Assembly (NCBI RefSeq): GCF_001856685.1 | Contig: NZ_CP017812.1 | Location: forward strand, 1,612,001-1,676,000 | Direction: 5' to 3' | Length of the DNA stretch: 64,000 nucleotides | Origin: Boudabousia tangfeifanii | GTDB lineage: Bacteria; Actinomycetota; Actinomycetes; Actinomycetales; Actinomycetaceae | In this document: in pieces, positions 1-64,000 of the stretch | Numbering within the stretch: the first letter of the stretch is position 1 | Layout of the letters: every line of letters starts with the position of its first letter | Made by a program: the position numbers and the translations under genes | The notes under the pieces: model-generated | Database searches by the model: none | Told to the model about the DNA's origin: nothing | What the model saw: only the letters and a program-made list of their open reading frames with translations

Positions 1-899
1 CCATCGGTGCTTTGGCCGCTGGTTTGCTCGGTGGTATCTCGGAGCCTTCGCTTTACGGTATCCACCTACGTTACAAGCGCGTTTACCCACCAATGTTGGT
101 CGGCTGTTTCCTCGGTGGTTTGACCATGGGCATCTTTGGTGGTGTGAAGGCTTCTGCCTTCGTCTTCACCTCGTTGTTCACTATCCCAGTATTCTCCCCC
201 ACCGTGCTTTACATGGTTGGTATCCTAGTAGCCTTCTTCGGCGCTTTGGTTGCCACTTTGTGGCGCGGTTACGAAGAGCCAGTTAAGGCCGAGGTCGCTG
301 CGGACGCTAAGGAAGCTGCTTCTAAGGCTGAAGCACCTGCGGCTGCTGCAGCCGCTGCTACCTCTGCTGGCACCGCCACTGCCGTAGCCACTAAACCAGC
401 GAAGACCGCTTTGCTACCTGATGCGGTTACCGAAGTAACTGCCCCACTACAGGGCAAGGCTATGGAACTAAGTGAAATCCCAGATCCAGTCTTTGCCGGC
501 GGCAAGATGGGCAAGGGCGTTGGGGTTGACCCCACCGGTAATACCGTGGTCTCGCCGGGAGACGGCACTATCGTAGTTGCCGCTCAAACCGGCCACGCAT
601 TCGGAATTCGCTTGGATAATGGCATCGAGCTTTTGATCCACGTCGGTATCGATACTGTCACCATGAATGGTGAAGGTTTTGAAGTACTAGTGGCTAAGGG
701 CGATCGCGTCAGCGCTGGTACCGAGCTGGTTCGTTTCGACCGCGCGAAGATCGAAGCTGCTGGCTTCTCACCGATTACTGCAGTCTTGGTAACCAACTCC
801 AAGAAGTTTGCAGAAGTTACCGGCCCACTAGCCGATAGCGCCGTTTTGGGTGCTCCGCTATTGCAGACCACTGCAAAGCCACCGAAAACTGAAGCCTGA
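1..899 (+). CDS. PTS sugar transporter EIIBCA, C-terminal part (partial)
   Basis: The reading frame is open from the left edge, so the EIIB domain and most of EIIC lie outside the window. The visible protein starts in the last part of EIIC, with the family signature GISEPSLYGI and two or three membrane segments. An Ala/Lys-rich linker of about 60 residues follows, then a complete glucose-type (Crr) EIIA domain near the C-terminus. EIIA carries the phospho-accepting histidine in IHVGIDTV, with the partner histidine in GHAFGI. It would accept phosphate from HPr and pass it to EIIB to phosphorylate an incoming sugar at the membrane. Fused EIIBCA proteins of this family move sucrose, trehalose or beta-glucosides; the substrate cannot be told from this fragment. 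A strong terminator follows directly. Confidence 0.9.
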   Translation, partial: IGALAAGLLGGISEPSLYGIHLRYKRVYPPMLVGCFLGGLTMGIFGGVKASAFVFTSLFTIPVFSPTVLYMVGILVAFFGALVATLWRGYEEPVKAEVAADAKEAASKAEAPAAAAAAATSAGTATAVATKPAKTALLPDAVTEVTAPLQGKAMELSEIPDPVFAGGKMGKGVGVDPTGNTVVSPGDGTIVVAAQTGHAFGIRLDNGIELLIHVGIDTVTMNGEGFEVLVAKGDRVSAGTELVRFDRAKIEAAGFSPITAVLVTNSKKFAEVTGPLADSAVLGAPLLQTTAKPPKTEA

Positions 900-914
900 T
901 TTTCTGGTTAAATA

Positions 915-948
915 AGTTTGGGCCTCCCGCTTTTGGGAGGCCCAAACT
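915..948 (+). terminator. Intrinsic terminator after the PTS gene
   Basis: A perfect 14-bp inverted repeat (915-928 with 935-948) encloses a 6-nt loop, 15 bp past the PTS stop codon. The stem is GC-rich at its closing end and AT-rich at its base. There is no long T run, so termination efficiency is inferred from the stem. Confidence 0.8.
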
Positions 949-986
949 ATTAGCGGGCAATTCGTCTAAACGACTTCAGAGAATTA

Positions 987-1023
987 TTTTGGGGCAACTA
1001 CTGGTTAAGTAGTTGCCCCAAAA
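987..1023 (-). terminator. Intrinsic terminator after xthA
   Basis: A perfect 14-bp inverted repeat (987-1000 with 1010-1023) has a 9-nt loop. It lies 8 bp past the xthA stop on the minus strand and its base is an A4/T4 pair. It faces the PTS terminator, so the two convergent genes each have their own hairpin. Confidence 0.75.
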
Positions 1024-1031
1024 GCTTTTGT

Positions 1032-1826
1032 TTAGTCTTGATAGACGACCGTCAGTGGTGCATGGTCAGTCCAACGCGTGTCGTAGGAAGAGGCCCGACC
1101 AATCTCAAAACTGGTAGCTTTCCCAGCGAAATCGGGAGTAGCCATTTGGTAGTCGATCCGCCAGCCAGCATCATTATCGAAAGCTTTTCCTCGCTGTGAC
1201 CACCAGGTGTATGGCCCTTGGGCTTCAGCTCCGGCTAGTTGACGTTGGACATCAACCCAACCATCGCCAAACCATTTATCTAGAAAAGCAATTTCTTCGT
1301 CCAAAACTCCGGCGGTCTTATTATGATTAGACTTCCAGTTTTTGATGTCTTTTTCGGTGTGAACGATATTGAAATCACCACAGACTACCGCGCTTTGCTT
1401 CTTCAAGTCCTGCAAGCGCTGGCTAACTAGAGCCAAGTGGGCATATTTCTGGTCCATTTTTTCAGTGCCGACCTGACCTGAATGCAAATAAGCGCTTACT
1501 ACCCGCAGCTTCCCCATAGGAGTATCTACGGTAGCTTCAAGCCAGCGCCCGGTATCAACCGGAGGTTCTTCTTCTTGGACTCCGAAAGTTACCTCAGAAA
1601 GCGGAGTTCGTGAGGCAATCGCAACCCCAGCGCGACCTTTTATCTTGCAGGCCGAGGAGACTAGGTGCCAGTCTTCAGGTATTAGTTTCCTGAGAATGTC
1701 ATCAGGGGCGCGAACCTCCTGCAACAAAACCACGTCGGCGCTGGTTTGTGCCCACCAGCTTTCCATCCCCTTGCGCATGGCAGCGCGAATCCCGTTGACG
1801 TTACAGGTAGTGATGGTAAAAGTCAT
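1032..1826 (-). CDS. xth: Exodeoxyribonuclease III (AP endonuclease)
   Basis: The 264-residue product is a full-length member of the exonuclease III / AP endonuclease family (endonuclease-exonuclease-phosphatase fold). Visible family motifs are the N-terminal TCNVNGIRAA, the metal-binding LLQEVRAP, GDFNIVHTEKD, WRIDYQ and the C-terminal TDHAPL with the catalytic histidine. It cuts DNA 5' to abasic sites during base excision repair and removes 3'-blocking groups. The ATG at 1826 has a GAGG ribosome site about 6 nt upstream, which supports this start. It lies 9 bp after the first YbjN gene on the same strand and may be the last gene of that transcript. It has its own terminator. Confidence 0.93.
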   Translation of the reverse strand: MTFTITTCNVNGIRAAMRKGMESWWAQTSADVVLLQEVRAPDDILRKLIPEDWHLVSSACKIKGRAGVAIASRTPLSEVTFGVQEEEPPVDTGRWLEATVDTPMGKLRVVSAYLHSGQVGTEKMDQKYAHLALVSQRLQDLKKQSAVVCGDFNIVHTEKDIKNWKSNHNKTAGVLDEEIAFLDKWFGDGWVDVQRQLAGAEAQGPYTWWSQRGKAFDNDAGWRIDYQMATPDFAGKATSFEIGRASSYDTRWTDHAPLTVVYQD

Positions 1827-1835
1827 TAGTTCCTC

Positions 1836-2252
1836 TCAGCGTTGACTAAAGCGACGAGTAGCGTGGGTCAGACGAGCAACGACCGATTCCAGTGCAGTTT
1901 CGACCATTAGTTTTAACTGCTCATCGTTCATCCCGCTCATAATTGGCTGGTAAACCTCGGCAAAAAAGTCTAGCCCGCCCTCGGTATTATCAACGAATGA
2001 TTTGGGGAAGTATTCTGCCTGGTGCTGACCTTCGATCCACAGCAAAATGTCATCTTTGGACGAGGGCGGCAACGGCTCGGGTAGCCATCCACGCACTAGT
2101 AAGAAGGGGGCAGCCATTTCTTTGCGGATAATCACCGGGAACTCATTGAAAGTGGCGAAAAGAGTTTCTTGCTGTTCACCCACTTCATAACCTAGTTCTT
2201 TCAAAGCGGCTTTCATCCGCTCCAAGGTGACATGAGTGATCTCGTTGCTCAT
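1836..2252 (-). CDS. YbjN domain protein (second of a pair)
   Basis: The 138-residue cytosolic protein has the YbjN / type III secretion chaperone-like fold signature: an N-terminal helix (LERMKAALKELGYEV), a beta region around TLFATFNEFPVIIRKE, and a C-terminal helix ending in basic residues. It has no signal peptide or membrane segment. Its ATG overlaps the stop of the upstream YbjN gene by 4 bp, so the two are translationally coupled and probably interact. YbjN proteins are common in Actinobacteria but their molecular role is not settled; stress and secretion-chaperone functions have been suggested. The family assignment is from overall pattern, not from a catalytic motif. Confidence 0.75.
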   Translation of the reverse strand: MSNEITHVTLERMKAALKELGYEVGEQQETLFATFNEFPVIIRKEMAAPFLLVRGWLPEPLPPSSKDDILLWIEGQHQAEYFPKSFVDNTEGGLDFFAEVYQPIMSGMNDEQLKLMVETALESVVARLTHATRRFSQR

Positions 2253-2692
2253 TCGGTTTCCTCCGCCTCAAAGTAGTTCGGGAACCGTGCAATGAGTTCC
2301 TCTTCCAGTTGTTGTGCCATTGCGAGTGAAACATTGACGAACATACTGACCTGATCGTCGCTCCAGGTACGTAGCACGATCGGGTACTCAGCCACAATCT
2401 GTAGCTGATCGTCCGATTCGCTATCAAGCGGTAGCAAAAATACCTTGGGGCCGAACTTAGTTGAGTTCCATTCATTGGTAAACTCGCGTAGCTTGGGGGC
2501 TTCTTCCGGAGGGAAGGCAGCATTGAACAGCACGCGTTCATAGCTGACACCACCGTCATCTAGCCCGAAGATAACTACTGCTTGCCCGTATCCAAGCCCA
2601 AGTTGGTCTGGGCCTGCGGGCGCATAATTTAGCTGTTGGCGGTCTAGTTCCGCTTCTAGTCGGCTTAAAGTTAAGGCTTGTAGTTCTGCCAT
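2249..2692 (-). CDS. YbjN domain protein (first of a pair)
   Basis: The 147-residue acidic cytosolic protein appears to be a paralogue of the gene that overlaps its 3' end. It shares the layout of an N-terminal helix (LEAELDRQQLNYAP), a central beta sheet and a C-terminal helix (MAQQLEEELIARFP). The start codon at 2692 has an AAGAGG ribosome site about 7 nt upstream. Tandem, overlapping YbjN genes suggest a heteromeric product. No catalytic residues are evident and function is not known from sequence. Confidence 0.75.
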   Translation of the reverse strand: MAELQALTLSRLEAELDRQQLNYAPAGPDQLGLGYGQAVVIFGLDDGGVSYERVLFNAAFPPEEAPKLREFTNEWNSTKFGPKVFLLPLDSESDDQLQIVAEYPIVLRTWSDDQVSMFVNVSLAMAQQLEEELIARFPNYFEAEETE

Positions 2693-2752
2693 GGAAACCT
2701 CTTTTCTGTTGGTATCACCTTAGCAAAGTTGTTTCTAATCAGGGCAGCAAGA

Positions 2753-2783
2753 TGCCTATGAGAAATATTTTTTCCCATAGGCA
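2753..2783 (-). terminator. Intrinsic terminator after folD
   Basis: An 8-bp perfect outer stem (2753-2760 with 2776-2783) continues inward through GAAA/TTTC pairing after one mismatch. It lies 19 bp past the folD stop on the minus strand. Confidence 0.6.
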
Positions 2784-2802
2784 GAATGCAAAGTGGTTTT
2801 TG

Positions 2803-3702
2803 CTACTGGGCGTTTCTCTCAGCAGCTTCTACCACGTTGGTTAGTAGCAGGGCGCGAGTCATCGGCCCGACTCCGTTTGGGTTTGGTGACAAGTAGGAGG
2901 CAACTTGGTCGACCCCATCGGCCACATCTCCACTTAAACGAGCAGGTTTACCTTCACCTTGCGAGACTCGGCTAACACCGACATCGAGGACGATGGCCCC
3001 CGGCTGCACCATTTCTGGAGTAATAATGCCTGGTTGTCCCGAGGCCGCGATGATAACTTCAGCGGCCAAAGTGTGGCTGGTCAGATCTTTGGTACCAGTG
3101 TGGCAGGTGGTGACAGTGGCGTTTACCGCTTTGCGACCAGCAAGCAGCCCGAAGGTGCGCCCAACGGTCACTCCCCTGCCAACCACACAAATATTTTTGC
3201 CACCGAGTTCGATGCCGTATCGGGTCATTAATTCCAAACAGGCTCTAGGGGTGCAAGGCAATGGTGAGTCGATCTCTTCATTGACGCCAAGGACGAGCTT
3301 CCCAAGATTTAATGGATGAAGTCCATCAGCGTCTTTAGCCGGGTCAATCGCCAAAAGCACTCGATTAGTATCAACCTGCTTGGGCAACGGTAGCTGCACA
3401 ATGTAGGCCGTAACAGTAGGGTCCTCGTTTAGCTCTTGTACCTTGGCCAGAACGTCCTCGGTACTAACGTCGCCAGGTAGTTCCACCTGAGTGGATTTGA
3501 TTCCGATTTCTGCACAGTCGCGGTGTTTACCGGCCACATAAGCCTTCGAGCCCGGATCATCGCCCACTAGAATTGTGCCTAGATTTGGTTCAATCCCCCG
3601 GGCCTGTAGTGCTTTAGCTCGAGCGGCAAGTTCTGACTTAATTTGGGCGGCAGTTGCTTTCCCGTCGAGAACTTTCGCCGGGCCATTCCAAGGTGCTCTC
3701 AT
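2803..3702 (-). CDS. folD: Methylenetetrahydrofolate dehydrogenase / cyclohydrolase
   Basis: The 299-residue protein has the bifunctional FolD layout. The N-terminal catalytic domain has [14 protein letters not shown] with the active-site lysine, and [10 protein letters not shown]. The NAD(P)-binding domain has [10 protein letters not shown] and ends with the family signature [14 protein letters not shown]. It interconverts 5,10-methylene-THF and 10-formyl-THF and so supplies formyl groups for purine synthesis (PurH) and initiator tRNA. It follows glyA by 15 bp on the same strand; GlyA produces its substrate, so the pair forms a one-carbon operon. The ribosome site before ATG 3702 is weak and distant, consistent with coupling to glyA. 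Confidence 0.95.
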
Positions 3703-3717
3703 TTAACGATTTTCCTA

Positions 3718-5004: not shown

Positions 5005-5010
5005 GCCGTT

Positions 5011-5116: not shown

Positions 5117-5123
5117 GGTGTTT

Positions 5124-6964: not shown

Positions 6965-7011
6965 ATTAATCCGAGGGCGCTGGCGCATGTGCCAAACGCC
7001 CTCGGATTAAT
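6965..7011 (-). terminator. Intercistronic hairpin between binding protein and permeases
   Basis: A perfect 15-bp inverted repeat (6965-6979 with 6997-7011) encloses a loop that holds a further 4-bp stem (TGGC/GCCA). It starts 9 bp past the binding-protein stop. By analogy with the malE-malF spacer it is probably a partial terminator or 3'-end stabiliser that lets the binding protein outnumber the permeases. Both arms contain the octamer CGAGGGCG that recurs across the window. Confidence 0.65.
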
Positions 7012-9804: not shown

Positions 9805-9826
9805 TGGCCGAGGACGTCCTCGGCCA
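9805..9826. repeat. 22-bp perfect palindrome between mdh and ppk2
   Basis: TGGCCGAGGAC and its exact reverse complement abut, with centre ACGT at 9814-9817. It lies in the divergent mdh-ppk2 promoter region, about 170 bp from mdh and 110 bp from ppk2. It equals two head-to-head copies of CGAGGACG. The first 18 nt recur at 26801-26818. It could be an operator for a dimeric regulator or an instance of the genome-wide octamer. Confidence 0.7.
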
Positions 9827-15156: not shown

Positions 15157-15199
15157 TAAAGCCCCCATATGCTCGGTGTAAGTACAGTTTCCTACACCC

Positions 15200-15283
15200 C
15201 CAACGCCCAGGCGTGCGACGCATCAAGGGGGACCAGATCGCTTCCCAGTGGTAACCACTTTTTCGCGCCAGTTACGATCCGTG
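15200..15283 (-). promoter_or_regulatory. ZTP (pfl) riboswitch upstream of purH
   Basis: Read on the minus strand, GATCGTAACTGGCG is followed by a GTGG/CCAC hairpin, CTGGGAAGCGATC closing the first stem, a linker, and CGCCTGGGCG. These are the conserved segments of the pfl/ZTP aptamer, including the pseudoknot-forming CGCCTGGGC element. ZTP builds up when 10-formyl-THF is short, and these RNAs then switch on purine and one-carbon genes. The element ends about 40 nt before the purH start. A GGTGTA/TACACC hairpin (15175-15198) lies between and has no U run, so control is probably at translation. Identified by eye from consensus memory. Confidence 0.8.
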
Positions 15284-15322
15284 CCCAGTCTAGCAGGTTT
15301 GTTTTAACTTGCCACGTCTGTT

Positions 15323-20444: not shown

Positions 20445-23167
20445 TAAATTGCCGTCACCTTCTTAAATCTGGCCATAATACGCTTACTGGTGCCGTTGTC
20501 GAAGTCGATGTGATAGACCAAGGAAGCACCTTGTCCGCTGGTTTCTCGCACGGTGCCATCACCGTAGGCACTGTGTGTAACTCGGGTTCCGGCCGGATAG
20601 TTGGGCCAATCACCGCTGGCCCCGGCCGAGGCTCCACTTTGTTGCTGGCGTTTGGCCACGCGGGCCGCAGCGGTGGGACTAACCGGGCGTTCACTACCTG
20701 TGAGAGTGCTTCTTAGACCCTGGCCCGAACCAATCGCAGGGGCAAAATCGTCATCCTCACTGCGAGGAGCGCGCACGTGTCGGTAACCGCCTACTCCTCC
20801 CCCATAGTTTTCCCGTCCGGAACGAGGGTAGCTACTACCATAACTTCCTCCCCAGCCGGTGGAGACGAAGGGGTGGCTGGGCACTAGGGTGCGATCGGTT
20901 TCAAGCACAATCTCAGCTGGCAATTCATCAAGGAAACGTGAGGCAACTTTCTCAATACTCTTGCCCCAAGCGGTTCGCATGTGAGCGCGGGTGAGGTACA
21001 AGCGCTTTCGTGCGCGAGTGATCGCCACATAGGCTAGGCGGCGTTCTTCTTCTAGCTCGCTTTGGCTGTACATGGCTCGCTCATGCGGGAAAGTTCCGTC
21101 TTCCATCCCGGTCACGAAAACCACGGGGAACTCTAGACCCTTGGCGGTGTGCACGGTCATCAGGGTGACTTCGCCCTGGTCATCTTGGTTAGGTAGCTGG
21201 TCAGTATCCGAAACTAGCGCCACTTTTTCGAGGAAGTCTGCTAGGTGATCGCCTCGCTCAACGTCTGGTGGTAGTTCTTTTTCCAGCATGTTTTGCAATT
21301 GTTCAAACTCGCTGGCCACAGAGTGGAGTTCTGCCAGGTTTTCGATCCTAGAGACGTCTTGGAGATCAGTCGAGGCTCGTAGGGCAGCAAGGTAACCGGA
21401 AACATCTAGGAGGTGATCGAGGAGGACGGCCACGCCCTCGGCAATTTTCAGGCGCGATTGGAAGATCATGGCTGCGAACTCGGCGAGGGATTTTTCGGCG
21501 CGAGTGGACAGTCCAGTAACCGGCGGAAGTTTGCCGATTTGAGGCCACAGTTCGTCGATTTCAGCTTGCACGGCTTCACTGGCATTGCCTTGCGACAGGA
21601 CTAGACGAGCCATGGCCGCCCCGGTGCTCTGCTGGTAGGTGTTGGCCCACTCGTTGACCATGGCGATGGCTTTGGCACCAATCCCCCGTCGGGGGGTGTT
21701 GACGATGCGGTTAAAAGCCACCACATCATCTGGGTTGTGGGTCAACTGGAGGTAAGCGATAGCGTCCTTGATTTCGGCGCGATCGTAGAACTTGGTGCCG
21801 CCAACCACGCGGTAAGGAATTCCGTTGCGGGTTAGCGCTTCTTCAATCGCTCGCGATTGGGCGTTTGTTCGGTAGAAAACAGCAAAGTCACCGTATTGGT
21901 ATTGCCCGGCCAATTCGTCAATTTCTTTAATGATGAAGTTGGCTTCTTCGCGGTCCGAGGGCGCGGCATCGATGACGATTTTGTCGCCTTGACCGAGGTC
22001 GGACCATAGTTCCTTGACTCGACGGTTTTGGTTTTGGCTGATGATGGCGTTGGCGCCCGAAAGAATGTTCTGGGTGGAACGGTAGTTCTGGTTCAGGGTG
22101 ATAACCCGAGCATTCGGGTAGTCCTTTTCGAACTCTTCGATATTGCGGATGGTGGCGCCGCGGAAAGCGTAAATGGACTGGTCGGAGTCACCCACCACGG
22201 TGAGTTCTGCCGGTGGCACCCCGTCGCTGCCGTCGCCGGTGAGTAGTGCGGCCAGCATGTACTGGGCGTGGTTGGTGTCTTGGTATTCGTCGATGAGGAT
22301 GTGGCGGAAGCGTCGGTGGTACATTTCTGCCACGGCTGGCTGGGTTTGCAGTAGCTGTACCGTGAGCATTATCAGGTCGTCAAAGTCGACCGCGTTGGCT
22401 TCCTTGAGGCGTTCTTGGTAGCGCTGATAGACGGTCACTAGGTGCTGCCCGAAGGGATCTGCCGGAGCAGATTCGCCGTAGGCATGCGGGTCAACGAGTT
22501 CATTTTTTAGGTCGCTGACGCGTCGGGAAAAGTTCTTTGGTGGGAACTGTTTCGGGTCTAGGTTTAGGTCTTTACAGACCATCGTCATTAGTCGTTGCGC
22601 GTCGGTTTGGTCGTAAATGGTAAAGGTTGATTTCAGGCCGAGGGCGTCCGCGTGCTTGCGCAGAATCCGCACGCAAGCCGAGTGGAAGGTGGATACCCAC
22701 ATGCCCCTCGCTTGGTTGCCAATCAGGGCAACGGTGCGTTCACTCATTTCTGCCGCAGCTTTATTGGTGAAGGTGATAGCTAGGATTTCAAAGGGGCGCG
22801 CTCTACCGGTGGCAATCAAGTGTGCGATGCGGTGAGTCAGCACTCGAGTTTTGCCTGAGCCGGCACCGGCCACCACCAGCAGGGCGGAACCGCCATGAGT
22901 TACTGCCGCACTTTGCTCTGGGTTTAGCCCAGTCAATAGTTTAGTGATTTGAGCGTTGCGTTCAGCTTCTAGTTCTGCCGGGTCAAGGTATTCCCCTGCC
23001 GGGCCGAGGGCGGGATCATAGCCGGCTCCGACCTCGGTTGGCACCATCTGCGCGGCGGTGTTTGCAGCCATTTGCGCCCACAAATCAGCCCCTTGACTGG
23101 CGCCCATGTCGCCTAGGTTTAGTCCGGGGAGTACTGCTGGTGAAGGCTTTGAAAACTGCTGATCCAT
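20444..23167 (-). CDS. pcrA: ATP-dependent DNA helicase PcrA/UvrD
   Basis: The 907-residue superfamily 1A helicase translocates 3' to 5' in repair and replication restart. A roughly 75-residue N-terminal extension precedes the Q motif (LNPEQSAAV). Then come Walker A VVAGAGSGKTRVL, motif II DEYQDTNHAQY, motif III GDSDQSIYAFRGA, motif IV LNQNYRST, motif V VHTAKGLEFPVVF and motif VI VAITRARKRLYL. A Gly/Tyr-rich linker leads to a C-terminal Tudor-like domain (VTHSAYGDGTV to KRIMARFKKV), which binds RNA polymerase in PcrA. An AGAGGC sequence precedes the ATG; TAATCT ends 9 nt before it. Confidence 0.95.
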   Translation of the reverse strand: MDQQFSKPSPAVLPGLNLGDMGASQGADLWAQMAANTAAQMVPTEVGAGYDPALGPAGEYLDPAELEAERNAQITKLLTGLNPEQSAAVTHGGSALLVVAGAGSGKTRVLTHRIAHLIATGRARPFEILAITFTNKAAAEMSERTVALIGNQARGMWVSTFHSACVRILRKHADALGLKSTFTIYDQTDAQRLMTMVCKDLNLDPKQFPPKNFSRRVSDLKNELVDPHAYGESAPADPFGQHLVTVYQRYQERLKEANAVDFDDLIMLTVQLLQTQPAVAEMYHRRFRHILIDEYQDTNHAQYMLAALLTGDGSDGVPPAELTVVGDSDQSIYAFRGATIRNIEEFEKDYPNARVITLNQNYRSTQNILSGANAIISQNQNRRVKELWSDLGQGDKIVIDAAPSDREEANFIIKEIDELAGQYQYGDFAVFYRTNAQSRAIEEALTRNGIPYRVVGGTKFYDRAEIKDAIAYLQLTHNPDDVVAFNRIVNTPRRGIGAKAIAMVNEWANTYQQSTGAAMARLVLSQGNASEAVQAEIDELWPQIGKLPPVTGLSTRAEKSLAEFAAMIFQSRLKIAEGVAVLLDHLLDVSGYLAALRASTDLQDVSRIENLAELHSVASEFEQLQNMLEKELPPDVERGDHLADFLEKVALVSDTDQLPNQDDQGEVTLMTVHTAKGLEFPVVFVTGMEDGTFPHERAMYSQSELEEERRLAYVAITRARKRLYLTRAHMRTAWGKSIEKVASRFLDELPAEIVLETDRTLVPSHPFVSTGWGGSYGSSYPRSGRENYGGGVGGYRHVRAPRSEDDDFAPAIGSGQGLRSTLTGSERPVSPTAAARVAKRQQQSGASAGASGDWPNYPAGTRVTHSAYGDGTVRETSGQGASLVYHIDFDNGTSKRIMARFKKVTAI

Positions 23168-23297: not shown

Positions 23298-23302
23298 TAG
23301 GG

Positions 23303-23400
23303 GCGAACACGGGAGCCCGGAAGGATCGGGCTGAGAGGAAAGCTTTTCGCTTTCGACCGTTTGGACCTGATCCGGGTAATGCCGGCGCAGGAAGGTTTCC
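23303..23400 (+). promoter_or_regulatory. TPP riboswitch (THI element)
   Basis: The conserved aptamer segments are present in order: CGGGAGCCCG, GGGCTGAGAGGA, then GGACCTGATCCGGGTAATGCC and GGCGCAGGAAGG. It binds thiamine pyrophosphate and shuts off downstream genes when TPP is plentiful. The CTGAGA and CCTGAT...TAATGCC elements form the pyrimidine- and pyrophosphate-binding helices. No T-rich terminator follows; a short CCTC/GAGG hairpin near 23414-23430 and the AAAAGGAG ribosome site at 23457-23464 suggest translational control. Confidence 0.93.
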
Positions 23401-23470
23401 TCAAATTTTCCGTGCCCCTCTCGCGAGGATAAAAGTTATTCTCGTTCGCATTTTGCAAAAGGAGCACATG

Positions 23471-26546: not shown

Positions 26547-26547
26547 A

Positions 26548-27150
26548 ATGCCTCCCACTAAATTGCCTGATGTGTTGTCAGATTCTGCTTGGCAGCAACT
26601 TTTGGCCGAGCTGGCCCAGCTTGAGAGCACGCGACCAGTCCTTTTAGTGGATGGTCCTTCTGGTAGTGGGAAAACCACCTTGGCCACTTTTTTAGCGAAA
26701 CAGCTTCCTTTGGCCCTCCCCCAGTGGGCTGACCTGCAGTTGGTTTCGCTGGATAGTTTTTACCCTGGTTGGCAGGGCTTGGCTGCCGCGTCTACCATGC
26801 TGGCCGAGGACGTCCTCGCCACGCAAAACCCCGGTTTCACTAGTTGGGACTGGGAAGCAAACCGGCCTGGCACCTGGGTGTCGATTTCTCCTACCCGACC
26901 ACTACTAGTTGAAGGGTGTGGGGCTTTGACCCGACAAAGTCGGCCGTTAGCAGATTATGCCCTTTGGGTGGAATTGCCTGAGACAATCCGCAAGGAGCGT
27001 GCTTTAACCCGCGATGGGGACACTTTTGCCCCGCACTGGCAGGAATGGTTAGCTCAGGAACAAGCCCATTGGCAGCAAAACCGCCCTTGGGAGCTGGCTG
27101 ATTTATCTTTACCGCTAAACGATGTGTCGTCTGGCTGCCCAGCGCGTTAG
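26548..27150 (+). CDS. P-loop kinase, uridine kinase-like, in the thiamine operon
   Basis: The 200-residue cytosolic protein has Walker A VDGPSGSGKTTLATFLA, an aspartate-bearing strand after it (LVSLDSFYPGW) and a helical C-terminal part with REXW-like charged residues (EWLAQEQAHWQQNRPWELAD). It resembles the uridine kinase / phosphoribulokinase P-loop group as found in small actinobacterial kinases of unknown substrate. The frame is open further upstream, but ATG 26548, one base after the ykoC stop, gives the proper family N-terminus. Operon position suggests it could phosphorylate the imported pyrimidine or thiamine, but no classical ThiD/ThiN signature is seen. Its 3' end overlaps the convergent response regulator gene by 36 bp. 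Confidence 0.7.
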   Translation: MPPTKLPDVLSDSAWQQLLAELAQLESTRPVLLVDGPSGSGKTTLATFLAKQLPLALPQWADLQLVSLDSFYPGWQGLAAASTMLAEDVLATQNPGFTSWDWEANRPGTWVSISPTRPLLVEGCGALTRQSRPLADYALWVELPETIRKERALTRDGDTFAPHWQEWLAQEQAHWQQNRPWELADLSLPLNDVSSGCPAR

Positions 27151-37864: not shown

Positions 37865-42897
<5,033 letters not shown>

Positions 42898-43598: not shown

Positions 43599-44669
43599 TC
43601 AGCTACGGTTTCCTGGAATATAGGTTTCAGTTAATGGCATGGATGAGTCCGGAGCAAAATCCCAGTCCGAAGGTGCCAGCCCAGCCGCTACTAGATTTGA
43701 TCCTAAGGCGGCAATCTGTGCTCCATTGTCAGTGCAGTACTTAAGCGGAGGCATCCGCACTTCAATGCCGGCGGCACTAGCCCGTTCGTCTAGCAAGGAA
43801 CGCAAGCGGGAGTTTGCCGAGAAACCACCACCGATAACAATGGTTTTGACATCATGGGCTTGGCAAGCCGCGATCGCCTTGCTAGTCAGCGAGTCATTTA
43901 CAGCTTCGCTAAAGGCAGCGCAGATATCTTCGACGGGTAGCTCCTCACCCTGCTTCTGCAAGGTTTCAATGTAACGTGCTACTGCCGTCTTGAGTCCTGA
44001 GAAAGAGAAGTCGTAAGGATGCTCTTTCAAATCTTTAGGACGGGAAAGCCCACGCGGGAACTTAATAGCTTCGGGATTTCCCTGCTGAGAAAGACGATCC
44101 ACGTGGGGACCGCCAGGGTATGGCAAACCGAGAAGACGACCAACCTTATCGAAGGCTTCCCCGGCAGCGTCATCCAAGGTGCCGCCAAGTTCCACGATAT
44201 CGGTAGCGATGTCGTTGACCAGCAGCAAATTCGAGTGTCCCCCCGAAACCACAAGTCCGACAAAACGCTCAGGGAATTCTCCATGCACTAGTTGGTCAAC
44301 CGCTAGATGACCAACTACGTGGTTTAAACCGTAAAGAGGTTTTCCCAATGCCGAAGCCAATGATTTCGCAGCACAGTTACCAACCGTTAGGGAACCAATC
44401 AAGCCAGGGCCAGCAGAACAAGCGATAGCGTCAACTTCGGAAAGTTCCACCCCAGCTTTTTCTAGTGCTGACTCTAAGGTAGGCAAAAAAGATTCTAAGT
44501 GAGCTCGTGAAGCGATTTCGGGAATGATTCCCCCGTATCGGGCGTGCTGGTCCATCGAAGAGGCAGTCACGTCAACTAGCAGTTCATGGCCACGAACCAG
44601 AGCAACACCAGTTTCATCACAAGTGGACTCTACCCCTAAAACTAGTGGCAGATTTTCCTTGGTGCTCAT
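43599..44669 (-). CDS. tsaD: tRNA N6-threonylcarbamoyladenosine transferase TsaD
   Basis: The 356-residue ASKHA-fold protein transfers threonylcarbamoyl to A37 of ANN-decoding tRNAs together with TsaB and TsaE. Motifs are LGVESTCDETGVALV, GGIIPEIASRAH, ACSAGPGLIGSL, the metal histidines in LNHVVGHLAV, VSGGHSNLLLV and GGTLDDAAGEAFDKVGR. ATG 44669 is chosen because AAGGA lies 5-7 nt upstream; the frame is open further but without a start signal. tsaB, tsaE and rimI, its frequent neighbours, are not in this window. Confidence 0.94.
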   Translation of the reverse strand: MSTKENLPLVLGVESTCDETGVALVRGHELLVDVTASSMDQHARYGGIIPEIASRAHLESFLPTLESALEKAGVELSEVDAIACSAGPGLIGSLTVGNCAAKSLASALGKPLYGLNHVVGHLAVDQLVHGEFPERFVGLVVSGGHSNLLLVNDIATDIVELGGTLDDAAGEAFDKVGRLLGLPYPGGPHVDRLSQQGNPEAIKFPRGLSRPKDLKEHPYDFSFSGLKTAVARYIETLQKQGEELPVEDICAAFSEAVNDSLTSKAIAACQAHDVKTIVIGGGFSANSRLRSLLDERASAAGIEVRMPPLKYCTDNGAQIAALGSNLVAAGLAPSDWDFAPDSSMPLTETYIPGNRS

Positions 44670-44723
44670 CTTTTCCTTCTTTCTAACCAAAGATTCCAAA
44701 TAAAAAGTGCTCCCGTTTCAGTG

Positions 44724-44763
44724 AGGTGGCGTCCTCGGCAAGAAAGTATCGAGGACGCCACCT
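44724..44763 (-). terminator. Intrinsic terminator after lysS
   Basis: A perfect 14-bp inverted repeat (44724-44737 with 44750-44763) lies 18 bp past the lysS stop. Each arm contains the recurring octamer, as CGTCCTCG or CGAGGACG. Confidence 0.7.
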
Positions 44764-44781: not shown

Positions 44782-46353
44782 TCAGATGCGCTTAACCAGC
44801 GGGAAGGTGATGGTTTCGCGAATACCCTGACCGGTAATAGCCATGAGAAGACGATCAATGCCCATACCCATACCACCTGCTGGTGGCATGCCCTGTTCCA
44901 TGGCCTGCAAGAACTCTTCGTCGACCTCCATTGCTTCTGGGTCGCCGTTTGCTGCATCCAAGGACTGCTGTTCAAAGCGCTCGCGCTGAACAACTGGGTC
45001 GTTGAGTTCGGAGTAGCCGGTCGCAAGTTCGAATCCGCGGACGATCAAGTCCCACTTTTCCACCTTGCCTGGCTGGCTGCGGTGCCCCTTAACTAGCGGG
45101 GAGGTGTCGACTGGGAAGTCACGAACGAAAGTTGGCTCCCAGAGTTTGTCACCCACGAGTTCTTCCCAGAGAACTTCCACGATCTTGCCGTCAACGTAGT
45201 AGTCTTCGACCTCGACCTCGTGCTTGTCAGCTAGTTCAAGGAGGTGAGCGCGTTCAGTCTGTGGAGTAACTTCCTCGCCAAGAGCCTCGGAAAGGGATTC
45301 GTACAAACCGATCTGGGCCCACTCGCCGCCGAGGTCGTACTCGGTGCCGTCAGGCAAAGTCACCAAGGTGGAACCAGTAGCTGCCAGTGCCGCATTCTGG
45401 ATAATGTCCTGGGTGAGCTGGGCGATGGTGTCGTAAGTGCCGTATGCCTGGTAGGCCTCCAGCATGGTGAACTCTGGGCTGTGCGAGGAGTCTGCGCCCT
45501 CGTTGCGGAAGTTACGGTTGATTTCGAAAACGTTTTCGATGCCACCGATCAAGCAGCGCTTGAGGAACAATTCCGGAGCGATACGCAAGTAGAGATCAGT
45601 ATCGTAAGCGTTCATGTGGGTCTGGAATGGACGAGCCGCAGCACCACCGTGAATGTTCTGAAGCATCGGGGTTTCGACCTCGATGAAGTCATGCTGGTCG
45701 AACCACTGGCGCAAGCTCTTGACCACGGTCGAGCGGGTACGAACCATGTCACGGGCGCTTTGACGCATGATCATGTCAAGTTCACGGCGACGCACGCGCT
45801 GTTCCTCAGACAAGGAAACTTCAGTGCCGTCCTCGGCAGTGTAAGTCTTAGGAAGCGGACGAACCGACTTGGCAGCTAGAGCCCAGGCGGGAGCGGTTTC
45901 AAAAGTACCTGCGCCAGAACCTGCTTCGCCATTGGTGGCCATAATAGAAAGTTCGCCACGACGGGAAGCGATGACGCGACCGTAAACAAATAGGTGGTCG
46001 CCGAGGTCGACATCAGTCTTAAACGCAGAAAGAGAATCGACACCAACTTCCGCGGCCGAAAGCATGGCCTGAAGACGCTGGCCAGCACCATCGGCGATGG
46101 TGACGAAGCAAAGCTTGCCGCTGTTACGGATAAAGACCACACGACCAGCTACCCCAACTAGGGTGTCGGTTTCTTCGCCGGCGCTAAGGTGCGAGAACTG
46201 TTCGCGAACCTGAGCAATGGTGGTAGTTACAGGAAGTTGTACCGGGTAGGGATTAACCCCTGCGGCCAACATACGATCACGTTTTTCAACTCGGACACGA
46301 ATCTGTTCCGGAGTATCGTCAGTTGCTTGAGTAGAGTTCTTTTCTGCATTCAC
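44782..46353 (-). CDS. lysS: Lysyl-tRNA synthetase, class II
   Basis: The 523-residue class IIb synthetase has an N-terminal OB-fold anticodon domain (VGVAGRVVFIRNSGKLCFV), motif 1 near FIEVETPMLQNIHGGAAARP, motif 2 NRNFRNEGADSSHSPEFTML and motif 3 GMGMGIDRLLMAI. Length is normal. It starts with GTG 46353. No Shine-Dalgarno is seen and TAAACT ends 6 nt before the GTG, suggesting a leaderless transcript. Confidence 0.95.
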   Translation of the reverse strand: MNAEKNSTQATDDTPEQIRVRVEKRDRMLAAGVNPYPVQLPVTTTIAQVREQFSHLSAGEETDTLVGVAGRVVFIRNSGKLCFVTIADGAGQRLQAMLSAAEVGVDSLSAFKTDVDLGDHLFVYGRVIASRRGELSIMATNGEAGSGAGTFETAPAWALAAKSVRPLPKTYTAEDGTEVSLSEEQRVRRRELDMIMRQSARDMVRTRSTVVKSLRQWFDQHDFIEVETPMLQNIHGGAAARPFQTHMNAYDTDLYLRIAPELFLKRCLIGGIENVFEINRNFRNEGADSSHSPEFTMLEAYQAYGTYDTIAQLTQDIIQNAALAATGSTLVTLPDGTEYDLGGEWAQIGLYESLSEALGEEVTPQTERAHLLELADKHEVEVEDYYVDGKIVEVLWEELVGDKLWEPTFVRDFPVDTSPLVKGHRSQPGKVEKWDLIVRGFELATGYSELNDPVVQRERFEQQSLDAANGDPEAMEVDEEFLQAMEQGMPPAGGMGMGIDRLLMAITGQGIRETITFPLVKRI

Positions 46354-59777: not shown

Positions 59778-60543
59778 TTACAAGTTCCTTCCTAGGTAAT
59801 CCCGGCATGGTTAAAGCCGAGGCCGTAGTCGTGTTGTCATGCAACTGCAGTATACAGTTATGTTGTTGCGGATTTGCAATTAAAGTGGCCCTAATCCTAC
59901 CATGTGAGACGACTTTCAAAATCTCGTCGATCAAACCCCAGTGTAGATTCAACTGGTAAAGATCGACTTCTTCTCCCTGATCCCAAACTGGACAGGTAAG
60001 CAAGACCATTTCGCGCGGTTTACTGGTGCTGCGCGCGGTAAAACCAAGTGATGAAAGGAAGACTCGCACTTTGGTTAAATGCAGTTCTAGCTGCATCCGA
60101 GGCGAGTCGGGATCAAATTGTGCGTGAGTAGGAAGAGTGTGCGCGGCAAAGAGCTCTTGGGCCCACTCGCGACCAAAATCTTCAGCCAATTCTTGAATTT
60201 CGATACCGCGGCGCACCAGCACCTTCCGGACAGCGGAAGAGCGGAAACGTGCCAAGTTATCGAGAGATTCGAAAGAGGCTGGGATTGAGGGTTCGTATAA
60301 CCAGGTGGGACGTCCTCGTCCCCCCGTTTTTTCGGCAGTACGTTTTACTTGACCATTTTCGACTAAGACTTCTAGGTGGTCACGTAAAGAGTTGGGGTGA
60401 ATATCAGTTAGCTCGGAAAGCTTACTAATGGTAATCGGACGCAGTTCTGATGAAAGTACATTAAGCACTTGATACTGCGTGGGTGTTAATGAAGCCAATT
60501 GCCGCATTGCCGAGGCTGCGGAATTGATTACCGTTTCAGTCAT
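59764..60543 (-). CDS. Winged-helix regulator between nar and mod genes
   Basis: The 259-residue protein has an N-terminal ArsR/MarR-like winged helix (TISKLSELTDIHPNSLRDHLEVLVENGQV) with a GGRGRPTWLYEP wing. The C-terminal domain follows the COG2345/SufR-like pattern with potential metal or Fe-S ligands: Cys184 in LLTCPVWD, His201 in LNLHWGL and Cys230 in QQHNCILQL. One usual cysteine before the histidine is absent. Its stop lies inside modA and it follows narI on the same strand, so it may be part of a narGHJI-regulator-mod transcript. It plausibly couples oxygen, Fe-S or molybdenum status to nitrate respiration. AAGGAACAGGA precedes the ATG. Confidence 0.75.
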   Translation of the reverse strand: MTETVINSAASAMRQLASLTPTQYQVLNVLSSELRPITISKLSELTDIHPNSLRDHLEVLVENGQVKRTAEKTGGRGRPTWLYEPSIPASFESLDNLARFRSSAVRKVLVRRGIEIQELAEDFGREWAQELFAAHTLPTHAQFDPDSPRMQLELHLTKVRVFLSSLGFTARSTSKPREMVLLTCPVWDQGEEVDLYQLNLHWGLIDEILKVVSHGRIRATLIANPQQHNCILQLHDNTTTASALTMPGLPRKELVNELA

Positions 60544-60596
60544 TCCTGTTCCTTAAACCAAAAGGCTTATTGCTGATATTCACCCCAACTTTGGGA

Positions 60597-61376
60597 TCAC
60601 GCCCCAGAAGGACGAGCTCCCCCAGTGTAATAGTCATCGCTAGAGTGGTCTACTTTCTTCCAACCGCGTGCAGGCTTAGCAGCACCAGTGGCTGCTTCGC
60701 GCGAACGGTACACCACGTATGGACGGGTGGGGTAACCGATCGGAGCGGAAAGCACGTGTACGAGGCGAGTGAAAGGCCAAACCGCGAAGAGCAGTAGGCC
60801 GGCAATGACGTGCAACTTGAAAGTCAATGGCACGTTTGCCATGAGCGCAGGATCTGGCTGGAAGTAAAAGATCGAGCGGAACCATGGGCCAATGGTTTCA
60901 CGATAGTCGTAGCCGCCAGCTTCCCCAAATACCTGGTTAACCAAGGTAGCGGTGGTGCCCAAGCAGATGGCAATGAGCAACATGATGTACATGAAAACGT
61001 CGTTGCGGCTGGTGGATAGACGTACCGACTTGATAACGAAGCGACGGTAGAGCAAGCCGATTAGACCGAGGACGGTCATCAAAGCAGCCACCGAACCACC
61101 GATGGTAGCCACGAGGTGGTAGGAATGCTCGCTAATCCCGAGGGCGTTAGTCATTGCCTTGGGGAAAACCAAACCCATGACGTGTCCCAAACCGACAAAG
61201 ATAATGCCGAGGTGGAACAGCGGGGAGGATAGGCGTAGTAGCTTCGATTCGTAAATCTGGCTGGAGCGCGAAGTCCAACCGTACTGGTCAGTCTTCCAGC
61301 GCCAGATCATGCCCCCAATCAACAGGGCGAAGGAAATGTAGGGTAGGGCTACCCATAAGAAAAAGTCCATTTTCAT
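60597..61376 (-). CDS. narI: Respiratory nitrate reductase gamma subunit
   Basis: The 259-residue membrane cytochrome b subunit oxidises menaquinol and passes electrons to NarH. Five predicted helices carry heme-ligand histidines in SSPLFHLGIIFVGLGHVMG and in FKLHVIAGLLLF / TRLVHVLS. The frame is open further upstream, but ATG 61376 overlaps the narJ stop (ATGA) and gives the correct N-terminus (MDFFLWVALPYI). Last structural gene of the nar operon. Confidence 0.95.
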   Translation of the reverse strand: MKMDFFLWVALPYISFALLIGGMIWRWKTDQYGWTSRSSQIYESKLLRLSSPLFHLGIIFVGLGHVMGLVFPKAMTNALGISEHSYHLVATIGGSVAALMTVLGLIGLLYRRFVIKSVRLSTSRNDVFMYIMLLIAICLGTTATLVNQVFGEAGGYDYRETIGPWFRSIFYFQPDPALMANVPLTFKLHVIAGLLLFAVWPFTRLVHVLSAPIGYPTRPYVVYRSREAATGAAKPARGWKKVDHSSDDYYTGGARPSGA

Positions 61377-62050
61377 ACTCCAGGGATTGAGGTCGGGAAG
61401 GGAAGCTCGCCGGTCCCGACGAGTTCGGCTGGCGGTCCTTGACGAATGAGCTTTTGGTAGAGCTCCATGGTTTCGTCGGGGATGGGGCCAAGCACAGCAC
61501 ACACGTTTTCCACGAGGGCGGTCCACGGTGAAGAGAGCTGTCCGAGGGCGGCTCGCAACACTTCAAGACCTTCACGGTATGCCGGCAAAAGTGCCTGTAC
61601 TGCCGGATCGTCGGAGCGTGCGCTTAGTTCCAAAACAATGGGCAGATAGTCGGGTAGTTCAGAACCGGTTAGTTCGAAGCCCGCCGCTTTGAGCAACTCT
61701 TGGAAAGTGAGTAGAGCTGCCCCACGGGTACGGGTATCCCCTACCGCGTAGTAGGTCAAGTAGGGGGCGCAGCGTCGTTTTTGGTCGAAGGTTTCCACGT
61801 AGGCGGATTCGACCTCGGTGCGGGTTTGACCCTGCGCCCAGTCGCAGAAAGCGACGAAACGGTCGGCTAGTGCCAACGGCAATTCGTCAATGCTTTCGCG
61901 AACGGTGGCTAGCCGCTGCTCGAAATCCTCACCGGGATAGTCGAGCAGCAGGCTGGCCGCCATGTAAACAATGGTGCGCTGGCTATCCGTCACCTCTACG
62001 GGAGGTACCGGCTGAGCTGGTGCGCGACGTACAAAGTTAACCTGACTCAT
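61373..62050 (-). CDS. narJ: Nitrate reductase assembly chaperone
   Basis: The 225-residue all-helical protein of the NarJ/DmsD chaperone family helps insert molybdenum cofactor into NarG before membrane attachment. Recognisable parts are MAASLLLDYPGEDFEQRL, YVETFDQKRRCAPYLTYY and LPDYLPIVLELSA. It starts 2 bp after the narH stop. A poorly conserved C-terminal tail is normal for the family. Confidence 0.93.
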   Translation of the reverse strand: MSQVNFVRRAPAQPVPPVEVTDSQRTIVYMAASLLLDYPGEDFEQRLATVRESIDELPLALADRFVAFCDWAQGQTRTEVESAYVETFDQKRRCAPYLTYYAVGDTRTRGAALLTFQELLKAAGFELTGSELPDYLPIVLELSARSDDPAVQALLPAYREGLEVLRAALGQLSSPWTALVENVCAVLGPIPDETMELYQKLIRQGPPAELVGTGELPFPTSIPGV

Positions 62051-62052
62051 GG

Positions 62053-63657
62053 TTACTTCCTTGTACGCAAGGTGAGGAAGACCTTTTGGTTGCTACCTTC
62101 GCCGATGCCACAGCCGGCGCCACATTCGGCGGGGGCGCCGCGGCCTGGGCCGAGGTCGGCTAGGTTGGCAGCGTTCGGGAAGACGCCAGCATCCTTGAAT
62201 TCGGCGTATGGTTCGTAGTTTCCTTCGCCGCGTAGTTCCTTGATGCCGCGTGGCTCTTCTGGGTGCGAGGTCGGAATCACGTAACGGTCGTCGTACTTGG
62301 CAATGGCCAAGAGACGGTACATGGCTTCTACCTCTTCGCCGCTCATGCCGACAGCTGCCGCGATTTCTTCATCGCCTTGGCCTTCGACTCGAACGGAACG
62401 CATGTAAGAGCGCATGGCCGCAAGGCGTCGAAGCGACTTCTCCACAGGAGCGGTGTCACCAGCGGTGAACAGGCCTGCCAGGTATTCCATTGGGATACGC
62501 ATCTGGGAGATGGCCGTGAGCAAGACGCGGTGGTCTTCGCCATCGGATCCAGCCTGAGAAACGGCCTCGACCACTGGCGACAATGGCGGGATGTACCAAA
62601 CCATTGGCATTGTGCGGTACTCGGGGTGCAATGGGAGCGCCACCTTGTACTTGTGGATTAGGTCGTAAACCGGGGACTGCTGTGCGGCCTCGATGAAGGA
62701 GTTTGGCACGCCATCGGCTAGTGCCTGGGAAACTACCTCAGGATCGTATGGGTCTAGCAGCAAGTCACACTGTGCTGGGTAGAGATCCCACTCGTTTTCC
62801 ACGCTGGCAGCTTCTTGTACCTTGTCGGCATCGTAAAGTAGCACGCCGAGGTAGCGGAGGCGACCAACGCAGGTTTCGGAACAAATGGTGGGTTCGCCGG
62901 CCTCGATACGGGGGTAGCAGAAGGTACATTTTTCTGCCTTGCCCGAATCGTGGTTGAAGTAAACTTTCTTGTAAGGGCAACCGGAAACACACATGCGCCA
63001 ACCGCGGCAAGCATCCTGATCGACGAGGACGATGCCATCTTCGGTGCGCTTGTACATGGCGCCCGAAGGGCAGGAGGAAACACAAGTTGGGTTCAAGCAG
63101 TGCTCACAAATACGTGGCAAGTAGAACATGAAGGTTTCTTCGATCTGAGTCTTTACCTTCAGGTTCATCTGCGAAAGAACCGGGTCCTCGTGCATGGTTT
63201 CTGCCGAACCACCGAGGTCGTCATCCCAGTTTGGACCCCAGGAGATGGTGTCCATGTGTTCGCCAGTGAGCTGCGACTTAGCGCGAGCAACTGGTAGCGA
63301 CTTCGAGTCCTTCGGGGCCGAGAGTAGCTTTTCGTACTCGTAGGTCCAGGGCTCGTAGTAGTCGTCAATCTCTGGCAAGTTCGGGTTTGCGAAGATCTGA
63401 GTGAGCTTCTTGAGGCGACCGCCAGCCTTTGGCTTTAGCTTGCCGCTCGAGGTACGAACCCAGCCACCCTGCCATTTTTCTTGGTCTTCCCAACGTTGTG
63501 GGTAGCCCACACCTGGGCGGGTTTCAACGTTGTTGAACCACATGTACTCGGTGCCTTCACGGTTGGTCCAGGCTTGTTTACAAGTCACTGAACAGGTGTG
63601 GCACCCGATGCACTTGTCGAGGTTCATGACCATCGCGATTTGTGCCATGATTTTCAT
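62053..63657 (-). CDS. narH: Respiratory nitrate reductase beta subunit
   Basis: The 534-residue iron-sulfur subunit carries electrons from NarI heme to NarG. Four cysteine clusters are visible: CIGCHTCSVTCKQ, CEHCLNPTCVSSCPSG, CRGWRMCVSGCPYKK (tryptophan in place of one cysteine, giving the 3Fe-4S cluster) and KCTFCYPRIEAGEP / CSETCVGR. ATG 63657 overlaps the narG stop (TGATG). Confidence 0.96.
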   Translation of the reverse strand: MKIMAQIAMVMNLDKCIGCHTCSVTCKQAWTNREGTEYMWFNNVETRPGVGYPQRWEDQEKWQGGWVRTSSGKLKPKAGGRLKKLTQIFANPNLPEIDDYYEPWTYEYEKLLSAPKDSKSLPVARAKSQLTGEHMDTISWGPNWDDDLGGSAETMHEDPVLSQMNLKVKTQIEETFMFYLPRICEHCLNPTCVSSCPSGAMYKRTEDGIVLVDQDACRGWRMCVSGCPYKKVYFNHDSGKAEKCTFCYPRIEAGEPTICSETCVGRLRYLGVLLYDADKVQEAASVENEWDLYPAQCDLLLDPYDPEVVSQALADGVPNSFIEAAQQSPVYDLIHKYKVALPLHPEYRTMPMVWYIPPLSPVVEAVSQAGSDGEDHRVLLTAISQMRIPMEYLAGLFTAGDTAPVEKSLRRLAAMRSYMRSVRVEGQGDEEIAAAVGMSGEEVEAMYRLLAIAKYDDRYVIPTSHPEEPRGIKELRGEGNYEPYAEFKDAGVFPNAANLADLGPGRGAPAECGAGCGIGEGSNQKVFLTLRTRK

Positions 63658-64000
63658 CAGAATTGCACCTCCTGGCTACGGCGACGGATGACCGTAACTT
63701 CGTCTCGTTGGTTACCGGTGGGGCCAATGTAGTTGAACGCGTAGTTGAACTGGCCGTAGCCACCGATTAGGTGGGAAGGCTTAAGGAAAATACGGGTTAG
63801 CGAGTTGTGGGTACCACCGCGCTTACCGGTAGATTCGTTGAGTGGCGTGTTCATGGTTCGCTCTTGGGCGTGGTGCATGAACACGGTGCCTTCTGGCATA
63901 CGGTGCGAGACCACTGCACGAGCGGAAACTACACCGTTACGGTTAGCAACTTCGATCCATTCGTTGTCGCGGACGCCAATCTTTTCGGCGTCCTTGATGG
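63657..64000 (-). CDS. narG: Respiratory nitrate reductase alpha subunit, C-terminal fragment
   Basis: The frame is open to the right edge, so only the last ~114 residues of the roughly 1200-residue molybdopterin subunit are visible. The segment is the molybdopterin-dinucleotide-binding end: DNEWIEVANRNGVVSARAVV, MPEGTVFMHHAQERTMNTP, THNSLTRIFLKPSHLIGGYG and FNYAFNYIGPTGNQRDE. It reduces nitrate to nitrite at the cytoplasmic face. First gene of narGHJI as far as visible. Confidence 0.95.
   Translation of the reverse strand, partial: IKDAEKIGVRDNEWIEVANRNGVVSARAVVSHRMPEGTVFMHHAQERTMNTPLNESTGKRGGTHNSLTRIFLKPSHLIGGYGQFNYAFNYIGPTGNQRDEVTVIRRRSQEVQF

Follow-up and report, generated by a model that had tools for sequence, protein, structure and literature searches.

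Why does one eight-base word recur so often along a bacterial chromosome, and what might keep it there? The question arises from a 64,000-base stretch of Boudabousia tangfeifanii (Actinomycetaceae), hereafter the window, which covers bases 1612001-1676000 of the single 2,207,832-base contig of this genome (G000), and in which an earlier note had reported an octamer massively over-represented on both strands. The word is the asymmetric motif CGAGGNCG, with the core C-G-A-G-G-N-C-G, and two related spellings, CGACGNCG and TGACGNCG, lead in other members of the family (CGAGG, CGACG, and TGACG genomes below). That note had named HIP1 of cyanobacteria, uptake sequences, and Chi sites as likenesses without choosing among them, and had treated any role as inference. 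Of the three, the uptake sequence gains from the dialects, the lack of polarity, the inverted pairs of G000, a motif-poor prophage, and the presence of ComEA/ComEC and Tad loci, while Chi loses for want of polarity beyond composition and of recC, and HIP1 because the motif is no palindrome and, of the two methyltransferase families searched, neither is present in three genomes that carry the motif. By analogy, CGAGGNCG is probably a DNA uptake sequence (DUS) of the Neisseria/Haemophilus kind, here in a Gram-positive family.

Excess of the octamer in the window and the genome

In the window, CGAGGNCG occurs 130 times on both strands together against a third-order Markov expectation of ~11, and its forms CGAGGGCG, CGAGGACG, CGAGGTCG, and CGAGGCCG contribute 47, 30, 30, and 23 copies against 2.7, 2.4, 3.1, and 3.1 expected, respectively. 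When window octamers are ordered by Markov score, three of these forms occupy the top three places and the remaining one is fifth, outranked by CCGAGGGC, which overlaps the motif; the 21 single-base variants of CGAGGNCG have at most 32 copies each. The over-representation reported earlier is thereby borne out: the estimate of about 70 copies against 5 for the forms with G or A at the free position becomes 77 against 5.1 by exact tally, the octamer stands at all eight of the example positions given, and copies lie on both strands as claimed. One detail needs correction, as the rRNA, said to contain none, holds a single copy:

1 to 64000, 73 forward and 57 reverse: 130 copies of CGAGGNCG, ~2.0 per kb
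39500 to 39507, minus strand: only copy in the rRNA operon, a CGAGGCCG inside the 23S rRNA (octamer scan plus rRNA borders)

Enrichment is also present in the rest of the genome, a point on which the earlier note had staked its claim. A 464-kb sample of G000, consisting of the window and 20 stretches of 20 kb (L054-L073), contains 737 copies against 84 expected, and every single-base change of the motif lowers the count, the 21 variants numbering 21 to 145 each. Genome-wide, CGAGGRCG occurs 2058 times (1068 forward, 990 reverse, thus in about equal orientations) and the same pattern read backwards 189 times. Other over-represented 10-mers in the sample (CCGACCCCGG, CCGGTTAAGC, and AAGCCTGAGC) may be a dispersed repeat unrelated to the octamer.

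Codon use alone had been judged insufficient to explain the pattern, and this holds. When synonymous codons were permuted within each gene (genes taken from a simple codon-usage script, not a standard gene finder), 200 runs over 365 G000 genes gave a mean of 111 (110 to 113 over all shuffle sets) and a maximum of 138 copies against 629 observed, and 200 runs over 50 window genes a mean of 15.3 and a maximum of 25 against 121. Since these shuffles fall far below the observed counts and the intergenic DNA of the sample, rRNA excluded, is enriched as well (107 copies against 9.7 by Markov), codon use is not the cause. Density is similar in both compartments, 1.4 per kb between genes and 1.6 per kb within them, and genic copies lie in sense (292) and antisense (337) orientation. 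A terminator-only reading was rejected because 629 of the 737 copies are inside genes. Among the 107 intergenic copies, a C directly precedes the core in 69% and a G stands one base further upstream in 57%, with a weak T-rich stretch farther upstream, and copies cluster more than random spacing would give (coefficient of variation 1.5).

Related spellings across the family

When gapped octamers were ranked by over-representation genome by genome, one group of the family was headed by CGAGGNCG, a second by CGACGNCG, and G110 by TGACGNCG, and many other family genomes had no such leader. These lineage-specific spellings within one family, which resemble the DUS dialects described for Neisseriaceae together with inverted DUS pairs (Frye et al. 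2013, PMC3630211; here and below, papers cited by PMC number are represented by excerpts), are what we consider new. In 58 family genomes called by codon shuffle (seven motifs tried; threshold p <1e-4 and >1.6 fold; mostly one stretch of ≤20 kb each, six stretches or 120 kb for G000, the overlapping L180 and L218 omitted), 11 were significant for CGAGGNCG, CGACGNCG led in 20 and TGACGNCG in one (G110), G027 was unclear, and none of the 58 was flagged for both CGAGG and CGACG. A de novo search against a codon-shuffle background, covering ungapped octamers and two gap places and using eight stretches of G000, put the dialect motifs on top in eight of nine genomes, the exception being G027. In that genome (stretches L116, L163-L167), which has no clear dialect, CGAATNCG, CGATGNCG, and TGACGNCG are in ~2 fold excess and CGNTGACG also appears, which may be a further spelling; separately, in stretch L135 of G103, CGAGGCG without the free position is in excess (14 against 3.6 in 20 kb).

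With more sequence per genome and by codon shuffle (30 runs), CGAGGNCG reached 629 against 113 in G000, 125 against 13.5 in G029, and 186 against 50 in G071; CGACGNCG reached 221 against 37.5 in G034, 157 against 39 in G026, 242 against 65 in G039, and 131 against 60 in G033; and TGACGNCG reached 171 against 28.5 in G110. Intergenic DNA follows suit, with CGAGGNCG at 71 against 6.0 in G000 (in this multi-genome comparison), CGACGNCG at 14 against 1.9 in G026 and 49 against 8.6 in G033, and TGACGNCG at 24 against 3.8 in G110. CGAGGNCG is neutral or low in CGACG/TGACG genomes, and conversely, while the CGACG and TGACG spellings show small cross-excesses of up to 1.8 fold. Within Boudabousia the strength varies, G001 and G002 having 2.2 to 2.5 fold. 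Of nine named records, four use CGAGG (B. liubingyangii, Winkia neuii, and two Actinomycetaceae metagenome-assembled genomes), two use CGACG (Peptidiphaga gingivicola and Trueperella bernardiae), and three were not significant.

Whole-genome counts against the reversed pattern, a control that misleads at high GC, were 6721 against 634 for CGACGNCG in G028, 340 against 855 for CGACGNCG in G000, and 3224 against 666 for TGACGNCG in G110. Because this control is unreliable at high GC (e.g., G005 has 3794 TGACGNCG against 344 reversed), the class-level ratios from 197 genomes were not taken as enrichment and were discarded in favor of codon shuffling. Outside the family, the three spellings stood at 1.0 to 1.4 fold within genes of Brevibacterium (8 loci), Oerskovia/Cellulomonas (5 loci), Saccharomonospora (3 loci), and Corynebacterium (a single locus), and reached 1.7 to 1.9 fold in single small loci of Actinomadura and Mobilicoccus. 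Given the latter values and the intergenic excesses in Corynebacterium (CGACGNCG 10 against 3.8, TGACGNCG 5 against 1.3) and Mobilicoccus (CGAGGNCG 3 against 0.4), the motif may not be limited exactly to the family.

In a tree built from ComEC alone, with 41 rows and some long branches, seven CGACGNCG/TGACGNCG genomes form one branch with support of 100/100 and G110 lies inside it; the CGACG label is clustered, needing 7 changes against 10.6 in shuffles (0/500 as low). A profile search had found ComEC in 46 of the 58 genomes (12 without), a single-sequence search having missed 13, and five fragments of <330 residues were excluded (G022, G036, G057, G080, and G088), so the tree lacks, among others, the CGAGG genomes G057 and G080 and the CGACG genomes G004, G006, G011, G015, G031, G033, G058, and G065. 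The TGACG label of G027 in this tree was the script's choice among three motifs, CGAATNCG being its leading motif in the 58-genome call. G110 retains a two-fold CGACGNCG excess (54 against 27 expected), which is what a leftover from an earlier spelling would look like. The ComEC frame itself ranges from <500 to >1000 residues across the family and is short in four Boudabousia (525 to 582), in which the C-terminal part may be missing.

Orientation, inverted pairs, and uptake genes

As in an uptake sequence, the about equal orientations of CGAGGNCG come without replication polarity. Leading and lagging copies in the G000 sample number 290:246 (54%), and 80 permuted motifs of equal composition give 2054:1630 (55.8%), with strands assigned by the local GC skew of the sampled stretches and stretches of skew <0.02 omitted; there is no polarity beyond base composition. 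One sampled prophage, as recently acquired DNA, is also poor in the motif. Stretch L069 (1.70-1.72 Mb, GC 0.518) has 4 copies against ~32 at mean density, of which a flanking S-layer-like gene contains three and a phage tail gene the fourth, and its prophage part, from 7.5 kb on with approximate borders, has one copy in ~12.5 kb. This prophage-like part (L069:7559-20000, G000 ~1.7076-1.72 Mb) carries tail genes, a holin, an endolysin, and, side by side, two large serine integrases, and an ABC/FtsX transporter pair lies inside it.

Close CGAGGNCG pairs (≤60 bases) in intergenic DNA of the G000 sample are mostly inverted (17 of 21, with 4 direct; two-sided binomial test, ~0.007), and in coding DNA 36 of 73 are. 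In a tally by gap type, which took gaps of 20 to 600 bases and thus slightly more sequence than the count of 17, 15 inverted pairs fell in convergent (6 in 9.3 kb), tandem (7 in 22.6 kb), and divergent gaps (2 in 11.8 kb), making them densest, in small numbers, between convergent genes. The three intergenic hairpins in which the earlier note had placed motif copies do exist, and further inverted pairs lie inside genes:

6972 to 7004, gap between two minus-strand genes: inverted pair CGAGGGCG ... CGCCCTCG, stem-loop 6960-7016, -32.8 kcal/mol
9809 to 9822, divergent intergenic region: overlapping inverted pair CGAGGACGTCCTCG, stem-loop 9798-9832, -18.5 kcal/mol
44730 to 44757, between two minus-strand genes: outward-facing inverted pair, stem-loop 44720-44768, -34.1 kcal/mol
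43599 to 44699 and 44782 to 46353, both minus strand: tsaD-like and lysS-like genes flanking the preceding pair, named by a look at their translations
26805 to 26818, inside a coding region: overlapping inverted pair CGAGGACGTCCTCG
23005 to 23036, inside a coding region: inverted pair

The lysyl-tRNA-synthetase-like protein of the window is 86 to 88% identical to its counterparts in Boudabousia liubingyangii, B. marimammalium, and Actinomycetaceae bacterium TAE3-ERU4. The window also contains a TPP riboswitch (23299-23411, plus strand) and a ZMP/ZTP riboswitch (15198-15285, minus strand).

Judged by its genes, G000 appears equipped for DNA uptake. ComEA, with SLBB and helix-hairpin-helix domains, adjoins a ComEC of 579 residues, and two candidate pilus loci are present:

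~187-191 kb of G000: first Tad/Flp-type locus, with T2SSE ATPase, TadB/C-like protein, a small pilin-like protein with DUF4244, a protein weakly matching TadE, and one more small protein
~670-675 kb of G000: second Tad/Flp-type locus, with T2SSE ATPase, a pair of membrane proteins, a short protein resembling Flp, and three that resemble pseudopilins

Two of the three pseudopilin-like proteins match TadE or Tad at scores close to the cut-off, and the remaining proteins at this second locus are presumably what their position suggests. Across the family, Tad loci (L203-L222) differ by clade: the TadB and TadC matches fall on a single frame in 9 of 11 CGAGG genomes (exceptions G014, with two frames, and G008, with none found) and in G003, and all seven CGACG/TGACG genomes examined have two frames and a strong ssd/cpaE match.

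An uptake role, its rivals, and known systems

If CGAGGNCG does serve in uptake, an extracellular pseudopilin or DNA-binding protein of the Tad/Flp-pilus and ComEA/ComEC route would prefer motif-bearing DNA, and the DNA of kin would be taken up and recombined more often. Copies would build up by point mutation where codons and intergenic DNA permit, single sites turning over rapidly, and a shift in the reader's preference would let a lineage drift to a new spelling (CGAGGNCG, CGACGNCG, or TGACGNCG). The wider proposal, that the Actinomycetaceae run a dialect-bearing code for uptake of self-DNA whose reader is a Tad/Flp pseudopilin or a protein on the ComEA side, so that the trait would have arisen also in high-GC Gram-positives with another pilus and no outer membrane, seems to us evenly balanced between right and wrong.

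Several observations weigh against an uptake role. Frequent inverted intergenic pairs are confined to G000: none occurred in G071, G026, or G034, one in G029, three each in G039 and G033, and two in G110, counts that rest on 5 to 19 kb of intergenic DNA each against 59 kb in G000. ComEC and T2SSE ATPases were found in every one of the 121 family genomes searched, whether rich in the motif or not, and therefore gene presence does not discriminate and was dropped as a contrast; likewise, tadA was found in 19 of 19 genomes and flp plus tadE in 17 of 19 at a permissive E of 0.1, several TadE matches being weak (~20 bits), so that uptake and Tad genes are not special to motif-rich genomes. A comparison of seven Tad proteins of G110 and G028 with those of five CGACG genomes, in which a ComP homologue was not part of the search, gave no clear outlier as receptor (TadE 0.295 against 0.324, TadF 0.303 against 0.321).

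On the side of the motif itself, 25 of the 58 genomes had no significant motif by codon shuffle, most of them represented by one 20 kb stretch; genomes of >70% GC had a shuffled excess of at most 2 fold, which is weak evidence; and the Boudabousia genome G003 fell below threshold (16 against 5). The CGAGG label is not clearly clustered on the ComEC tree (7 changes against 8.3, 74/500 as low). A general depletion of near-matches was not found in seven genomes, masked counts being 0.85, 0.98, and 0.77 of expectation in the CGAGG genomes G000, G029, and G071, 1.06, 1.02, and 0.88 in the CGACG genomes G034, G026, and G039, and 1.21 in G110; an apparent enrichment of neighbors in CGACG genomes arose in part because the motif overlaps its reverse complement, and was not borne out after masking. 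Nor were sites kept in place above permuted motifs between Boudabousia species: 5 of 39, 0 of 17, and 0 of 22 sites of G000 were kept in three relatives, and 16%, 12%, and 5% of permuted motifs, in small samples of 27, 12, and 16 pairs of orthologs, which share 65 to 70% of their nucleotides. Turnover fits such non-conserved positions, and so does any process that preserves density only.

The rival that survives best, though we think it unlikely, is HIP1-like, with a DNA methyltransferase recognizing the motif, methylation-linked repair or selection making and keeping the copies, and the dialects tracking the enzyme's target. HIP1 too is a very frequent octamer, and some cyanobacterial lineages swap it for alternate HIPs with a matching methyltransferase (PMC4390886); therefore, dialects alone do not exclude this explanation. 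A search of G000 for methyltransferases gave one C5 match and three of the N6/N4 type. However, HIP1 is palindromic, with matching methyltransferases, whereas CGAGGNCG is asymmetric and reads CGNCCTCG on the opposite strand. Among 20 family genomes searched, C5 matches occurred in 14 and N6/N4 matches in 15, and G002 and G077 (both CGAGGNCG) and G033 (CGACGNCG) had neither; as type I, IIG, and Dam-type enzymes lay outside this search, the exclusion is partial.

Slightly less probable again is a Chi-like role, in which the motif would make an AdnAB-type helicase-nuclease cease degradation and begin recombination. Like Chi, CGAGGNCG is a frequent octamer that is rarer in acquired DNA, being almost absent from one prophage, and a large helicase-nuclease-like gene pair, which we take to be AdnAB-like and for which no NCBIfam model reached its cut-off, is present at L060:1438-8702, shortly before the second Tad-type locus. 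Chi is polar, whereas CGAGGNCG shows no polarity beyond its composition; a recC model found no match in the 20 family genomes, an E. coli control scoring above the cut-off; and 1.6 copies per kb is ~8x the E. coli Chi density of one per 5 kb. Mycobacterial AdnAB is, to our knowledge, not governed by Chi.

Use of the motif by a nucleoid or structural protein, which would need dense unoriented copies, accords with the similar density in genes and gaps and on both strands, but by itself predicts neither dialects, inverted intergenic pairs, nor prophage poverty, and we regard it as improbable. Mutation pressure or codon-pair use alone, to which the excess of only 1.7 to 2 fold after codon shuffling in high-GC relatives and the 1.7 to 1.9 fold of the Actinomadura and Mobilicoccus loci could be credited, is very hard to credit: in G000, the excess extends to intergenic DNA (107 against 9.7) and each single-base change cuts the count (737 against 21 to 145).

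An uptake role would place CGAGGNCG beside a few known systems. Uptake sequences have been described for Pasteurellaceae and Neisseriaceae, and for Haemophilus the genomic DNA that had entered cells was recovered and sequenced (PMC7811141). Like the Neisseriaceae DUS, CGAGGNCG is short and very abundant, has related dialects inside one family, and, in G000, forms inverted pairs capable of folding into stem-loops, which are terminator-associated in Neisseriaceae (PMC3630211); it differs in sequence, with its free position, in its Gram-positive host, and in the Tad/Flp-type loci. The cognate receptor in Neisseria is ComP, and no Tad protein compared here was singled out as a receptor. Inverted pairs are reported in all DUS-dialect genomes (PMC3630211), whereas they are frequent only in G000 here. 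The uptake signal sequence (USS) of Haemophilus influenzae, with ~1300 copies and terminators that often consist of two opposed copies (PMC5217627), is comparable, although its consensus is AAGTGCGGT and it belongs to another phylum. As for machinery, transformation in Micrococcus luteus requires tad genes and comEC (PMC4322843), and comEA and two tad clusters are present (PMC4322843; review PMC6370729), as are comEA/comEC and two Tad-type loci in G000; this likeness is one of genes, and the term "uptake sequence" occurs 0 times in the main text of PMC4322843.

In the literature searched, from which most subscription journals fall outside, the string CGAGGNCG was not found (CGACGNCG and TGACGNCG were not searched as strings), nor was any paper joining "uptake sequence" with Actinomycetaceae. 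Among the papers listed on uptake sequences or competence in Actinomyces, Gram-positives, and Actinobacteria, titles and abstract beginnings mention no such Actinomycetaceae motif, and the spaced-motif paper PMC5217627 has no match for Actinomyces, CGACG, or CGAGG.

Should the uptake role prove true, CGAGGNCG and its related spellings would let cells recognize their own kind's DNA during exchange, a self-recognition signal in a group for which we found no described example. They would add a further case of dialects, in Gram-positives and with a different pilus, and would thus indicate that the trait evolves repeatedly. Pairing dialects with pilus genes would open the receptor problem to testing in a new system, and the motif would help to predict gene exchange among members of the family and how to transform them.

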